From: Microlunatus soli
Lineage (GTDB): Bacteria > Actinomycetota > Actinomycetes > Propionibacteriales > Propionibacteriaceae
Assembly: GCF_900105385.1 (NCBI RefSeq)
Contig: NZ_LT629772.1
Coordinates: 1,612,001-1,676,000 of the forward strand
Direction: 5' to 3'
Length of the DNA stretch: 64,000 nt
Shown: piece after piece, positions 14,908 to 58,990 of the stretch
Layout: every line of letters starts with the position of its first letter
Numbering within the stretch: the stretch's first letter is position 1
Made by a program: the position numbers and the translations under genes
Notes under the pieces: generated by a model
Databases searched by the model: none
Told to the model about the DNA's origin: nothing
The model's input: only the letters and a program-made list of their open reading frames with translations

Positions 14908-14980
14908 TGGAGCTAAGGGGATTCGAACCCCTGACCTTCGCATTGCGAACGCGACGCTCTACCAACTGAGCTATAGCCCC
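14908..14980 (-). tRNA. tRNA-Ala, anticodon CGC
   Basis: The minus strand reads GGGGCTATAGCTCAGTTGG through the D-arm, a TTCGCAA anticodon loop (anticodon CGC, decoding GCG), a GGTTCGAATCC T-arm and a matching 7-bp acceptor (GGGGCTA/TAGCTCC). The discriminator is A; CCA is not encoded. Length 73. A terminator follows. The anticodon stem is closed by one G-T wobble. Confidence 0.95.
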
Positions 14981-46344: not shown

Positions 46345-46423
46345 TGGCGCCCGTCCCTGCCGCGCCGTACCCGTGCAGGAAAAGTGATCGCCGGTCGGTC
46401 CGATCGATGCGAGAGTGAACGGC

Positions 46424-46774
46424 GTGACGGATCGTTCCCTGCCGACGCCGTATGCTGCGTTCGCGCTGCCGCTGTATCAAGATCGCGACAGTGCGCACGA
46501 CGCCGACCACATCCGACGCATCGTCGGTCGCCTTGATCAACTCGCAATCGATCTCGAACCTCAACCCCGACCGTGGATGCTGTACTTCCTCGCCTACTTC
46601 CACGGACTCGGCAGTCGCGTTGATCAAGATCGTACGTTTCGCCATCAGGTCGAGCAGTTTCTCGGTGACCTCGGTTGGCAGCGTTCGGAGATCACCGAGG
46701 GTTTCGTGCTCCTGCGCCGCCATTGCGTCGCGCCCCGGACCAGCGAAGAGCGGATCGTCCACGACGCCAACTAG
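46424..46774 (+). pseudogene. HD-domain protein, N-terminal fragment (gene split by a mobile element)
   Basis: The 116 residues from GTG 46424 (GTG 46415 also possible) form the start of an HD-domain phosphohydrolase-like protein: SAHDADHIRRIVGRL gives the HD pair and LYFLAYFHGLGSRVDQD follows. The frame ends ...RIVHDAN then TAG, at the left edge of the 46771-46933 element. The remaining part of the same protein resumes after the element at 46934 with VEVLGAFGVAKAF. Together about 185 residues would be restored. The encoded enzyme is therefore presumably lost. Its original function is unknown. Confidence 0.85.
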
Positions 46775-46933
46775 GAGACTGCTGAACAATCTGCCCTGCT
46801 GCGCGGCGCGCTGCACGCACACCGGCGGCGTTGCACTCCTTCAACGTGCTGGCGCACGCCCTCAGTCGTGCGCCTTGCCGTTGCACGCACATCGCACCGC
46901 TCGCGACGGGCACATTGTTCAGCACCCTCCTAG
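46771..46933. mobile_element. 157-bp TA-flanked inverted-repeat element (MITE-like), copy A
   Basis: A 26-base terminal inverted repeat (46771-46796 and 46908-46933, 23 of 26 pairs matching) frames a GC-rich interior with conserved blocks (CTGCGCGGCGCGCTGCACGC, CGTTGCACTCCTTCAACG, GTGCGCCTTGC). TA dinucleotides sit at both ends (46772-46773 and 46931-46932), as expected from Tc1/mariner or IS630-type transposition. It encodes no protein. It interrupts the HD-domain gene, which defines its borders. The TAG-to-TAG distance of 159 is a multiple of three. Confidence 0.85.
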
Positions 46934-47140
46934 GTCGAGGTGCTGGGTGCATTCGGCGTCGCCAAGGCGTTCACCAAGGGCGGGGCAGCGGGACAGAGCT
47001 ACGAACAGACGATGGCGATCTTCGACCAGAACCTTGCTCGGGTTCGATTCCGGACACCTCGGGGACGAGCTTCGGCCGAAGTCGGGCGTGCGTACGCGAG
47101 GTCGTTCCTTGATCAATTACGGGTCGAGTTGCGCGACTGA
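46934..47140 (+). pseudogene. HD-domain protein, C-terminal fragment
   Basis: 68 residues beginning VEVLGAFGVAKAFTKGGAAG and ending QLRVELRD, open from directly after the right-hand TAG of the mobile element. The sequence continues the protein that stops at HDAN on the other side, in the same frame. It has no own start site with a ribosome signal (a GTG at 46940 is the only candidate). Its last 28 bases overlap the 3' end of the opposing regulator gene at 47113. Confidence 0.8.
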
Positions 47141-50100
47141 TCGAGCGACTGTTCGACGGCAGTGACGACGTCCCGGGCGGACTCGGGATCCAGCCGCGCG
47201 GCTTCGGCGAAGATCCGGGCAAACGCCTCCGGTCCGAGGTGATCGGTGGCCGCAGCGGAGATCCGAGCGACGTCGACGTCACCGCGGATCGCCAATCCAC
47301 GCAGCGATGTGGCGGCGCCGAGCAGTCGGGCGGCACGCTCGGGATGATCGGCGAGCACGGCCGATCCGGCAGCCCCTTCCGCGGCGTGGGCGAGCTCGCT
47401 GGCGAACGGTGCGGCGGCGGCCAGCTCGACGGCGGCGGCATGTTGACGCTCGGCCTCGGCCGGGGCTTGTCCCAGCTCGGCGAGACGCCCCAGTTCGGTG
47501 TGGATCCGGGCCGCCATCCAGGGCACGTCCAAGGTGCCGGCGTCCGCGGCGACCGACGCCTTGCGGATCAATCGCGCGGCCTCGTCGGTGTCACCACGGA
47601 GTCGAGCGACCTCGCCGAAGGACAGCAGGAACTGCACCCAGGTGTCGTCGGGCCGACCGGTGCGTTGCAGCAGCTGTTGTGCCCGATCCACCAGCGCCGC
47701 AGCCTCCTCGCCGCGTCCCTCGCGGACCATGGATTCCGCACGATGACAGAGGACGCTGGCGCATTCCTCCAGGGCCCCGAGCTCGGACTGCAGGTCGAAG
47801 GCTTCCGACCACAGCTCGTGCGCTGCGGGCCACGCACCACGCCAACTGGTCATCTGTCCCAGCCAGTCCAACGCCTGCGCGGTCCCCCACCGATCGCCCA
47901 ACCGGCGGAACTCCTCCAACGCGGCCCGCATCTCGGGCTCCTCACGCTCCGGCCGTCCGCCCAGCATCCCGAGCAGGACGCGGCTGAGCCGGGCCAACGC
48001 GTGATTCCACGGATCGCCGGACAACAACACCTCCGCGGCTGCAGTGTCGTCGGACGGTCCGACCGTCATCCCCCACAGCGCCGCGCCGAACGGATGGCGC
48101 AGCGGACGGTCCCGGGTCGCCATGATCGCGATCGCGCGCTCCCAGTGTTCCTCCGACGCCCGCGGCACGGCGTGCACGACGCAGCTGACGTACTCCTCCT
48201 CCAACCCGGCCGGCGGTCCGACGTCGTCCAGCCGACCGACCAGTTCGGCGGCGAACTCGCCTGCCCGACCGTTGCGTCCGCTGAGCCACCAGTAGGCGGC
48301 CAGCACGCAGACCAGCCGCATCGCGGTCGGCGGATCGTTGTCCGTCGTCCATTCCAGTGCGGCCGTCAGATTCGCGTCGTCGACGGCCAACCGGTCGAGC
48401 CACACGAGTTGGTCGGCACGACGCAACTCGGGATCCGCACGCTCGGCACGGTCGAGGAAGTAGCCGGCATGCCGGTGCCGGGTCGGCTCATCCTCTCCTG
48501 CGGCAGACAGCTGTTCGGCGCAGAAGGACCGGACGGTCTCCAACATCCGGTAGCGGTGGCCATCGGTCTCGACCAGGCTGTGATCGACCAGTTCGGCAAG
48601 CAACAGATCGGCGTCCTCCGCCCCGTACACCGCTTCGACTGCGGCGAAGTCCGCGCCGCCGACGAACACCGACAGCCGGCGCGCCAGCCGCTGTTGGTCG
48701 GCCGACATCAGGTCCCAGCTCCACTGCACCACGGCTCTCAGCGTCTGATGTCGTTCGGCGGCGGTCGGATCACCACGCAGCAGCTGGAGTCGCCCCTGAT
48801 CGATCAGTCGTCGGGCCAGGTCGGCGGTCGAGAATTGGCGGGTCCGGGCTGCGGCCAGTTCGATGGCGAGCGGCAGCCCGTCCAGCTCAGCACAGATCTC
48901 GCGGACCGCCGACCGGGACTCGTCATCGAGGGAGAAGCCCGGCTGAACGGCGACGGCACGATCGGTGAACAGCCGGACAGCCGGGTCACCGGTCGAGCCG
49001 GCGCCCGAGACCGAGTCTGCGGCGAGGCCGCTCAGCGGAACCAGCAGTTCCTCGGTCAGCCCCAGCGCGACCCGGCTGGTGGCGATCACCCGGACGCCGC
49101 GGCTACCGGACAGCAACGACCGACACACCCGCAGGACGCCGCCGACCACGTGCTCACAGTTGTCCAGCAGCAACACCATGTGCTGCGTCGACAGCGATGC
49201 GGCCAACCGCTCGCTGTCGGCGGCATCGTCGGCACCGGCCAGCGGATCCCGCCGTCCGAGCGCGGCCAGGACCGCGGGCACGACCTGCCGATCGGTCGAC
49301 ACCGCAGCAAGATCAACAAAGGCCACCGGTTCCCGGATCCGGTCGGCGGCCTCGATCGCCAGCCGTGTCTTCCCCACGCCGCCGGGACCGATCACCGTCA
49401 CCAGACGCCCCGCATCGGCATCGGCCAGCACGGCGTCGATCTCGACGGATCGGCCGACGAAGCTGGTCGACTGTAGCGGCACCGACCGCCATCCGGGTTC
49501 GTCACGGCGGAGGATCTCCTGGTGGATCGCCCGCAGATCCGGCGACGGGTCGGTGCCCAACTCCTCCGCGAGGAGGTTGCGGGCCCGTTCGTATTCGGAC
49601 AGGGCCTCGGCCGGGCTGCCGGCCGCCACCAGGGCTCGCATCAACAGTCCCCACAGCCGTTCGCGGAGCGGATGGGCTTCGACCAGCGCTCGCAGGTCGG
49701 CGACCGATGTCCCGGACGGCAGAGCCAACTCCGCTTCGACAAGATCTTCGGAGGCGACCAGCCGTGCCTCGTCGAGCCGGGCGATCACAGCATCGGCTCC
49801 GGCAACGTCGCTGAGCGCGGGACCGCGCCACAGGTCGAGGGCGTTTTGCAACAGTCGGGCGGCCGCCGTCGCGTCGCCGGCCTGCAAACGATCATGGCCG
49901 GCCGAGGACAATCGTTCGAAGCGGCAGACGTCGACGTCTTCGGGTTGTGCGTGGAGTCGGTAGCGGCCTGCCTCGAACGTGATCGAGCCGGGCGGCAGGC
50001 TTCTCCGCAGCCGGGAGATCTGGGCCTGGATCGCATTGGTCGCCTCGGCTGGTGGATCCTCCTCGTACTGGCCGGTCAACAGTTCCTCGACACTCACCGG

Positions 50101-50217
50101 TCGACCCGGTGTCAGCGCCAGCAGGCTGAGCAGCGATCGTTGCCGGGCCCCGGCGACGGCGACGTGTTCACCGTCGGTCGTTCGGACCCGGAGCGGCCCG
50201 AGGATGTCGTAGTGCAC
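47113..50217 (-). CDS. AfsR/BTAD-type regulator with NB-ARC and TPR domains
   Basis: 1034 aa from GTG 50217 (an upstream frame extension has no domain). Residues 1-95 are an OmpR-like winged HTH (GARQRSLLSLLALTPGRPVS), 96-245 the BTAD domain (DVDVCRFERL; EDLVEAELALPSG), about 265-550 an NTPase with P-loop VIGPGGVGKTRLA and Walker-B-like VLLLDNCEHV, and the rest TPR-like helices. Such regulators activate antibiotic or stress genes in actinobacteria on a nucleotide-dependent signal. No biosynthetic cluster adjoins. A mobile inverted-repeat element (50325-50488) lies just upstream of its start. Confidence 0.9.
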   Translation of the reverse strand: MHYDILGPLRVRTTDGEHVAVAGARQRSLLSLLALTPGRPVSVEELLTGQYEEDPPAEATNAIQAQISRLRRSLPPGSITFEAGRYRLHAQPEDVDVCRFERLSSAGHDRLQAGDATAAARLLQNALDLWRGPALSDVAGADAVIARLDEARLVASEDLVEAELALPSGTSVADLRALVEAHPLRERLWGLLMRALVAAGSPAEALSEYERARNLLAEELGTDPSPDLRAIHQEILRRDEPGWRSVPLQSTSFVGRSVEIDAVLADADAGRLVTVIGPGGVGKTRLAIEAADRIREPVAFVDLAAVSTDRQVVPAVLAALGRRDPLAGADDAADSERLAASLSTQHMVLLLDNCEHVVGGVLRVCRSLLSGSRGVRVIATSRVALGLTEELLVPLSGLAADSVSGAGSTGDPAVRLFTDRAVAVQPGFSLDDESRSAVREICAELDGLPLAIELAAARTRQFSTADLARRLIDQGRLQLLRGDPTAAERHQTLRAVVQWSWDLMSADQQRLARRLSVFVGGADFAAVEAVYGAEDADLLLAELVDHSLVETDGHRYRMLETVRSFCAEQLSAAGEDEPTRHRHAGYFLDRAERADPELRRADQLVWLDRLAVDDANLTAALEWTTDNDPPTAMRLVCVLAAYWWLSGRNGRAGEFAAELVGRLDDVGPPAGLEEEYVSCVVHAVPRASEEHWERAIAIMATRDRPLRHPFGAALWGMTVGPSDDTAAAEVLLSGDPWNHALARLSRVLLGMLGGRPEREEPEMRAALEEFRRLGDRWGTAQALDWLGQMTSWRGAWPAAHELWSEAFDLQSELGALEECASVLCHRAESMVREGRGEEAAALVDRAQQLLQRTGRPDDTWVQFLLSFGEVARLRGDTDEAARLIRKASVAADAGTLDVPWMAARIHTELGRLAELGQAPAEAERQHAAAVELAAAAPFASELAHAAEGAAGSAVLADHPERAARLLGAATSLRGLAIRGDVDVARISAAATDHLGPEAFARIFAEAARLDPESARDVVTAVEQSLDQSRNSTRN

Positions 50218-50567
50218 GGTTCCGATTCTCTGCCCGCGTGCCGCCGTCGGTGGTGATCGGGGCAAAACTGGCTGACCATTCGGCTCTTCCTGAAACGTCC
50301 ACTGCTGCCGGCTCCGCCGACCGGCTAGGGAAGCACTGATCAATACGGGCGTAGCGAGGACCCGCGATGCGCGGTCGGTCGCAAGGCGCAGGAGTGAAGG
50401 CGGGCCGGGGCCCGTCGAACGAGTGCAACGTAGCGAACGGGCGTGCAGCGCGGGCCGCAGTAGCCCGTATTGATCAGTGTTTCCCTACCGTCCTCCTGAG
50501 ACAGTGGTTGTCTCGCCAGACAGTGATCTTGTGAACCGCACGGCCGGCGGATTGGTAGAAAAGGGCC
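50218..50567. other. 350-base divergent gap holding copy B of the inverted-repeat element
   Basis: The gap between the BTAD regulator and tarD contains the inverted-repeat element and, after it, about 80 bases of possible promoter for tarD. No coding frame is supported. Confidence 0.6.
50325..50488. mobile_element. 158-bp TA-flanked inverted-repeat element (MITE-like), copy B
   Basis: Terminal arms 50326-50350 and 50463-50487 pair at 24 of 25 bases and carry TA at their outer ends. The interior, read on the minus strand, shares ordered blocks with copy A (GCGCTGCACGC, CGTTGCACTC-TTC-ACG, TGCGCCTTGC). The arm core is CTGATCAAT/ATTGATCAG where copy A has CTGAACAAT/ATTGTTCAG, a compensated change. 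It lies 108 bases upstream of the BTAD regulator start, so it may affect that promoter. Confidence 0.8.
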
Positions 50568-52584: not shown

Positions 52585-52646
52585 CTAGCCGCCGGTGTGC
52601 GTGCAGCGCACCGCGCAGCAGGGCAGATTGTTCAGCAGTCTCCTAG
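52585..52646. mobile_element. Truncated copy C of the inverted-repeat element
   Basis: Bases 52589-52646 match the reverse complement of the left third of copy A at about 57 of 58 positions and end in CTCCTAG. The opposite arm is missing; the left edge still reads CCTAG. It sits 10 bases upstream of the XRE gene start. Confidence 0.85.
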
Positions 52647-58849: not shown

Positions 58850-58990
58850 GAGGTGTTCGTGTGACGAGTGTCAGCGTCAAGCCCCGGCTTGCTGACCGGC
58901 AACCCTCCTCCGCGGTGGGGTGCCCCGGGTGAAACACACGGCCGGGCCCGACCGGGACCCGGCAAGCGCGGGTCCGCAGTGCATACCAGG
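58850..58990 (+). promoter_or_regulatory. SAM-IV riboswitch
   Basis: Sequence 58861-58931 carries GTGACGAGTGTCAGCGTCAA, CCCCGGCTTGCTGACCGGCA, ACCCTCC and GGTGGGGTGCCCCGGGTGA, the pattern of the actinobacterial SAM-IV class. The 3' domain (GGCCGGGCCCGACC and on) continues to about 58990. The GAGGAG ribosome site of the downstream class V aminotransferase gene lies 20-30 bases beyond. Regulation is expected to lower expression when S-adenosylmethionine is abundant. Confidence 0.88.

Follow-up and report, generated by a model that had tools for sequence, protein, structure and literature searches.

Two hairpin elements in a Microlunatus soli window

The window, the whole 64,000-nucleotide stretch of the Microlunatus soli genome that was analysed, contains two imperfect palindromes, copies A and B, that lie in opposite orientations, as well as a third, truncated copy (Table 1). 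The initial annotation had described TA-flanked inverted repeats of about 157 bp here, and this description holds, with units of 157 and 158 bp and TA on both sides of each. Complementarity of the terminal inverted repeats is 88% in copy A and 96% in copy B, and each copy folds into a single long hairpin, with predicted RNA folds of -107.0 kcal/mol for copy A (shuffle mean -71.0, z -9.2) and -106.1 kcal/mol for copy B (shuffle mean -63.9, z -11.7). The arms differ in pairs, CTGAACAAT/ATTGTTCAG versus CTGATCAAT/ATTGATCAG, and these paired changes, reported before, are present in the window sequence.

Genes in the window were called with simple codon scores. A predicted gene at 46415-46774 ends in a TAG codon (46772-46774) made up of the border TA of copy A and the first G of the element, and divergent predicted genes flank copy B. 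An Rfam scan of the window at the gathering score returned no family matching the hairpin element, and in a search with eight loci at E <= 5 the three matches obtained were at chance level, none reaching the gathering score. A SAM-IV riboswitch and a tRNA gene are located in the same window.

Table 1. Positions of the hairpin copies and of structured RNAs in the window
Feature	Position	Strand	Details
Copy A, hairpin element	46774..46930	forward (conserved) strand on minus	157 bp; type A ends GGAGGGTGCTGAACAAT
Copy A, TA borders	46772..46773 and 46931..46932	.	
Copy A, interior, model R1 match	46790..46914	-	own genome 1658790-1658914; E 5.1e-25
Copy B, hairpin element	50328..50485	forward strand on plus	158 bp; type B ends GGGAAGCACTGATCAAT
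Copy B, TA borders	50326..50327 and 50486..50487	.	
Copy B, interior, model R1 match	50344..50469	+	own genome 1662344-1662469; E 2.3e-24
Third copy, truncated type A	52588..52646	+	59 bp; 98% identity to copy A there
SAM-IV riboswitch	58860..58974	+	RF00634, 104.8 bits
tRNA gene	14908..14980	-	RF00005, 73.3 bits

A dispersed family with several kinds of ends

Copies elsewhere in the M. soli genome were first found with A, B and a third type, C, which was read from the matches. A covariance model, R1, was then made from the interior only of 37 own copies, with 16 bases cut off each end. The initial annotation had let the idea of a family stand or fall with further copies in this or related genomes, and had suggested a covariance model for their detection. 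Such a model works, and copies abound: in the 6.73-Mb genome R1 matches 60 places at E <= 0.001, of which 55 are full-length matches at E < 1e-8, and it finds matches in 10 of 20 genomes of the genus, M. soli included. The own copies are short (about 157-165 bp), dispersed, without a transposase gene and bounded by terminal inverted repeats, all of which are features of MITEs; across the family the unit measures about 157-170 bp.

Read by eye, the ends divide the 55 full-length copies into 17 of type A, 9 of type B and 19 of type C; the other 10 include type D (L214-L216) and type E (L213, L217, L218, L220). The outer ~20-35 bp differ between types and have little in common beyond the border, and the interior can be aligned throughout. 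Even within type C the ends vary jointly, as GCCTCGATCC, GCCTGGATCC, GCGTGGATCC and GCCTGGAAACACC, always matched by the complementary sequence at the opposite end, while the interior shows few changes.

Deletion derivatives exist in which both ends are kept and the centre is lost. Remnants with type B ends and almost nothing between them lie at 3164647-3164670, 1573065, 2879126 and 1904592-1904644 (L103, L105, L101 and L107) and look as if the centre of the palindrome had dropped out. Other rearrangements were seen. Type A copies stand in tandem at 1977654-1978032 (L008, L011, L023) with a period of 159, equal to one element plus one two-base border. A type A-like element in a second genome (L224, G003:C1:4993180-4996307, near 1501-1628) carries a self-complementary insert of ~33 bases twice, one per arm and in the same direction. 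Related hairpins in G010 and G017 (L321, L323, L325) have an additional palindrome inserted next to the core, GC-rich and CGGAGCGCCGCCTTCGGCGG-like, and eight Streptomyces copies (L336, L352, L358, L367, L377, L386, L396, L406) have a palindromic insert in one arm, GGGGGTCCCCCC..GGGGGAG-like, which is perhaps a second repeat family nested in the hairpin element.

The interior is conserved as a fold

In 66 copies from M. soli and its genus, 90.9% of the cells at 46 pairs form standard pairs, as compared with 63.0% after shuffling; slid partners pair in 27-45%, and two-sided changes occur at 44 of the 46 pairs. These 66 matches were used to build a second covariance model, R2. For 60 copies outside the R2 training set the corresponding values are 91.8% and 61.5%, with double changes at 43 of 46 pairs. 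The 60 copies come from class and database searches, and because 37 of the rows derive from the exact core pattern, core conservation in this set is partly selected. The alignments (A4, A5) were fitted to a model.

Unpaired columns are the more conserved, with 22 of 33 unpaired columns conserved at >=75% versus 27 of 92 paired ones. The commonest core consists of GCAAGGCSGASGAGG, an apical stem, and then CGACSGACGASAACGC. By eye rather than by computation, the core fold appears to contain two tandem G.A mismatches, with the single pairs between them swapping G-C and C-G, and adjoining AA bulges; in types A, B and C of M. soli, standard pairs replace part of the core loop. The AGGAGG in the core was considered as a Shine-Dalgarno sequence; this reading was given up, since G and C trade places around the GA steps from one copy to another.

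The paired arm changes of A and B had been taken to mean that the hairpin itself is selected. Paired changes at the ends alone do not prove this, since both ends must fit one transposase. Stronger evidence comes from covariation of the interior, from the conserved unpaired loops and from an asymmetry between the strands, and on these grounds we judge from the sequences that the hairpin is under selection.

One strand is favoured

The orientation of each copy was set from the core sequence and not from fold stability. All 144 copies that were folded as RNA are more stable on the forward strand (means -113.0 vs -90.9). These are the copies of 140-172 bases among 191 with ends found, from 196 in total; the automatic end-finder, which trimmed or misplaced the ends of some copies, served for typical lengths and for cutting the 144. 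In pairs chosen by Watson-Crick frequency, G.U outnumbers A.C by 137 to 38 (A4) and by 51 to 32 (A1), whereas the raw count of 396 to 46 overstates the excess, G.U pairs being rewarded by the folding program. The stability of the forward strand and the excess of G.U indicate that one strand is selected, and this strand most likely acts as RNA, possibly as single-stranded DNA.

A hairpin of single-stranded DNA that becomes accessible at replication forks or while the element transposes, and whose structure is recognised, would also make one strand matter. The forward strand is more stable with DNA parameters too (141 of 144), and it lies in the sense of lagging synthesis in 39 of 55 own copies (P 0.003; 36 of 52 with clusters merged), with the replication origin placed by gene motifs. 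This replication-strand skew weakly favours a DNA form, but only one replichore shows it (28 to 8, vs 11 to 8 in the other), and RNA better fits the conserved G.U positions. Furthermore, double-stranded DNA is regarded as the substrate of IS630 and IS5 transposases, and duplication of TNA or TA is not expected of single-strand transposition of the IS200/IS605 type. We consider a single-stranded DNA hairpin improbable as the explanation of the family.

Target sites and placement relative to genes

Duplication of a TA or TNA target is a further MITE feature of the family, imperfect in old copies. Identical triplets flank 9 of the 18 type C copies of M. soli that were examined. TNA stands at either border in 11 of the 18, and 8 of these 11 have the same middle base in both triplets, against a permutation mean of 3.1 (P 0.003). 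The TA duplication put forward in the initial annotation holds for A and B, each of which has TA at either border; their close relatives follow it loosely: TA is found on both sides of 7 of the 26 full-length type A and B copies in the genome, and on neither side of L003, which is 96% identical to A, so that either the flanking bases have since changed or the rule is not strict. A natural pair of filled and empty sites provides the expected TA at an empty site. On plasmids of Streptomyces coelicoflavus, the filled L491 has two TAs where the related empty L493 has one, at the TAG stop of fabG; the two sequences differ also by a stretch of ~75 bases and by two neighbouring bases. A plasmid pair from S. 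atratus fits an empty site by length and was rejected, as 11 unrelated bases are present.

Nearly all own copies (53 of 54) are located outside any predicted gene; for 12 of the 54, counted by hand, the end of a predicted gene extends 2-3 bases into the border, as might be anticipated for a regulatory element kept by the host, such as a terminator or an mRNA stability hairpin. However, placement at stop codons follows from the TA/TNA target, and all gene arrangements occur around the copies (24 tandem, 16 divergent, 13 convergent and 1 inside). The sense orientation to genes is not favoured in the M. soli genome (43 vs 63, P 0.06), which speaks against a host mRNA element, and presence in the genus is patchy (10 of 20 genomes). 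A role maintained for the host is thus very improbable as an account of the family.

Ends shared with IS630 and IS5 transposons

The initial annotation had attributed mobilisation to an IS630/mariner-type transposase. This is correct for some types in so far as they carry IS630 ends, but it does not extend to A and B, and the tie to IS630 alone has to be given up, given that other types carry ends of the IS5 family and that type C duplicates TNA. Ends matching full-length transposons were found in two cases for IS630 and three for IS5, and matches of this kind, another MITE feature, involve types D and E and some Streptomyces copies.

A sister genome (G010) contains an intact IS630 element of 1159 bp (NF033545, 272 bits) that begins CTAGTGGTGTGTCTTGTAAATAGGTTGCTGTTTGG, and its left end is the counterpart of type D in M. 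soli, which begins TAGTGGTGTGTTGCTGAAATAGGTTGACGTTTGG. In another genome (G009), a broken IS630 has the ends CTAGTGTCACGCGTC and CTAGTGTCGTGCGTC, and 8 near-identical hairpins of the same genome, among the matches listed, begin CTAGTGTCGTGCGTC. The third case is an IS5 element in G019 (L281, NF033580), 1114 bp from CTAG to CTAG, that ends in CTAGGGCGTGTCCCGTAAC; it is the counterpart of type E, which ends in CTAGGGCGTGTCCCGCAAC. In each of the three genomes at least one pairing of ends scored better than all 2000 shuffles; for unmatched pairings the lowest shuffle counts were 5 and 13 of 2000. For the G010 element against type D, left with left beat all shuffles, and right with right gave no match (1807 of 2000 shuffles as good). 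Only gapped scores were used in this test because some of the end strings start one base inside CTAG.

We also read 12 IS regions from Streptomyces and Mycobacterium, 11 of which yielded ends (L501 yielded none), and compared each with 20 shuffles. The Streptomyces IS5 elements L497, L499 and L500 scored 36, 30 and 33 against hairpin ends, relative to shuffle maxima of 24, 25 and 22; L497 and L499 share their ends with Streptomyces hairpins L343, L344 and L348, and L500 with L382. Two IS630 elements, L502 and L503, lie narrowly above their shuffles (26 vs 21 and 23 vs 21), but L502 does so against an IS5-like end, which shows that the test is loose and that a small excess carries little weight. 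The remaining six of the 11 regions did not exceed their shuffles; in L496, L498 and L505 what was taken for ends resembles repeats arisen by chance.

We found no transposon whose ends are those of type A, B or C, and by pattern search the A/B ends are absent from IS630 elements in the 20 genus genomes. The M. soli genome has no match to PF13358 (IS630) or PF13340. With no helper found in their own genome, copies A and B may be stranded there. Several candidates were followed and set aside. The 18 regions read for a type A-like end pattern in the 20 genus genomes contained nothing but hairpins, derivatives with deletions and unrelated sequence; following up type D ends without a partner led to the one broken IS630 of G009 and otherwise to hairpins or to places where no transposase was recognised; and L280, a PF13340 match in G010, has no plausible ends. 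Inside the IS of six IS regions the core is absent, one weak match (E 0.0058, L278) being recorded. Separately, a copy in M. soli (L212) and one in Streptomyces corynorhini (L368), from distant genera, have the common ends TAGACGAGTAAGTCC, so that a matching transposon may exist.

Distribution beyond the genus

At E <= 1e-4, R2 finds the family in 106 of 394 genomes of the class, M. soli included, and in 29 of 137 genera, with at most 8 candidates scored per genome. Single R2 matches at E 1.3e-10 to 1.4e-10 in three genomes of one genus (G045, G134, G368) are perhaps one old fixed copy. Over named genomes, the core pattern occurs in at least 119 stretches, and the 80 listed as loci comprise 76 actinobacterial and 4 Firmicutes loci, taxa being assigned from names and general knowledge. 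Actinobacterial genera among the matches listed include Streptomyces, Kitasatospora, Gordonia, Nocardioides, Frankia, Pseudonocardia, Leucobacter and Rathayibacter; the Firmicutes listed are two Lachnospiraceae, a Clostridiales and a Succiniclasticum; at least three of these are, by record title, metagenome assemblies or uncultured. Of 72,556 plasmid records 27 match, all Streptomyces. No match was found in viral contigs or phages, nor in 5,426 E. coli genomes searched with a 55-base core.

The Lachnospiraceae copy L346 matches R2 at E 6.2e-15 in a locus of 49% GC, between apparent rho and rpmE genes. Its paired arms are AT-rich, with CTAG on both sides, and the 165 bases from CTAG to CTAG are a usual length in other copies. 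Among the other Firmicutes loci, L371 and L381 have weaker or cut-off arms, and the Succiniclasticum contig carries two matches, one of them interrupted at the contig end.

Discussion

Discrete units, IS630- and IS5-like ends, TA or TNA duplication and a covarying fold of one strand together point to a MITE-like transposon. We therefore read A and B as copies of a non-autonomous, MITE-like DNA transposon with a strand-specific, RNA-like core that would be moved through the ends of unrelated transposases, and give this reading a probability of roughly 0.55. Resident IS630 and IS5 transposases would move the units in trans via their ends, and the interior would be retained because its folded forward strand aids spread of the element. 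The active strand would most likely be RNA, less likely single-stranded DNA, and could for example recruit to the element the transposase or the ribosome that is producing it. The core would also have changed its ends several times: one end would have been exchanged for that of a resident IS, and template switching within the palindrome would then have carried it over to the opposite arm.

If these were ordinary MITEs, only the ends would matter, and the interior would be functionless and shared by descent; matching arms would arise because one transposase fits both ends and template switching copies arm to arm. Ends that match IS630 and IS5 elements, end changes that come in pairs and derivatives that keep the ends only are all compatible with this. 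However, the loops are the most conserved part and stay unpaired, where arm copying would erase them, one strand is favoured, and the core is recognisable in Firmicutes beneath unrelated AT-rich arms. An interior that is simply carried along consequently seems rather unlikely, and we favour a core that is an RNA acting in mobilisation, as far as sequence comparison can speak to function.

It is possible, and we suggest it tentatively, that the family is a mobile structured RNA in which one core, from actinobacteria to Firmicutes, captures IS5 and IS630 transposases and swaps ends as its helpers change. Such an RNA would act in trans or on its own nascent transcript, and its capture of transposases could be likened to the capture of the L1 machinery by Alu RNA.

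Several known systems share features with the family. In integron attC sites structure likewise outweighs the sequence of the arms, and REPINs are likewise hairpins scattered through genomes and mobilised in trans; the duplication of TA/TNA and the IS5/IS630 ends argue against either kind. IS630 and IS5 transposons have the ends and target preference in common with the hairpins, but they encode a transposase, and six IS regions are without the core inside. We know of no core shared between the Correia/NEMIS repeats and this family, and the likeness is one of description only. Correia/NEMIS repeats of Neisseria are, in the account of PMC2229807, TA-ended hairpin MITEs. According to the same account, RUP of Streptococcus pneumoniae is a 107-bp repeat proposed to be moved by IS630-Spn1, and it resembles the present family in being short, folded and of high copy number, with IS630-like ends and a TA target; by that description only, it differs in being limited to one species and one transposon type, with no core under different ends. 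ERIC/IRU of enterobacteria (127 bp) is a long imperfect palindrome with TA ends, intergenic location and a structured transcript, as described in PMC2229807 and PMC2267715, where no transposon is named with its ends, and it is set apart by the absence of the 55-base hairpin core from 5,426 E. coli genomes. The bcr1 repeat of the Bacillus cereus group, 147 bp in the literature and 167 in one work, is a MITE-like repeat of similar size that is structured and partly transcribed (PMC2267715, PMC3446304), but by these descriptions it belongs to one species group, and end switching is not mentioned. A description of the hairpin family was not found in the open-access literature (subscription literature and ISfinder lay outside this search), and the family is apparently undescribed, with RUP, ERIC, Correia/NEMIS and bcr1 as its nearest kinds, set apart mostly by description.

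Short hairpin repeats in bacteria, ERIC and RUP among them, have long been known, and the role of their interior and the recruitment of transposases are mostly open. Here the core is conserved as a fold independent of the ends, so interior and ends can be separated, and it becomes testable whether a core aids mobilisation and serves transposases of unrelated families. As the family is common, occurring in 106 of 394 class genomes, it also bears on the annotation of intergenic regions in Streptomyces and its relatives.
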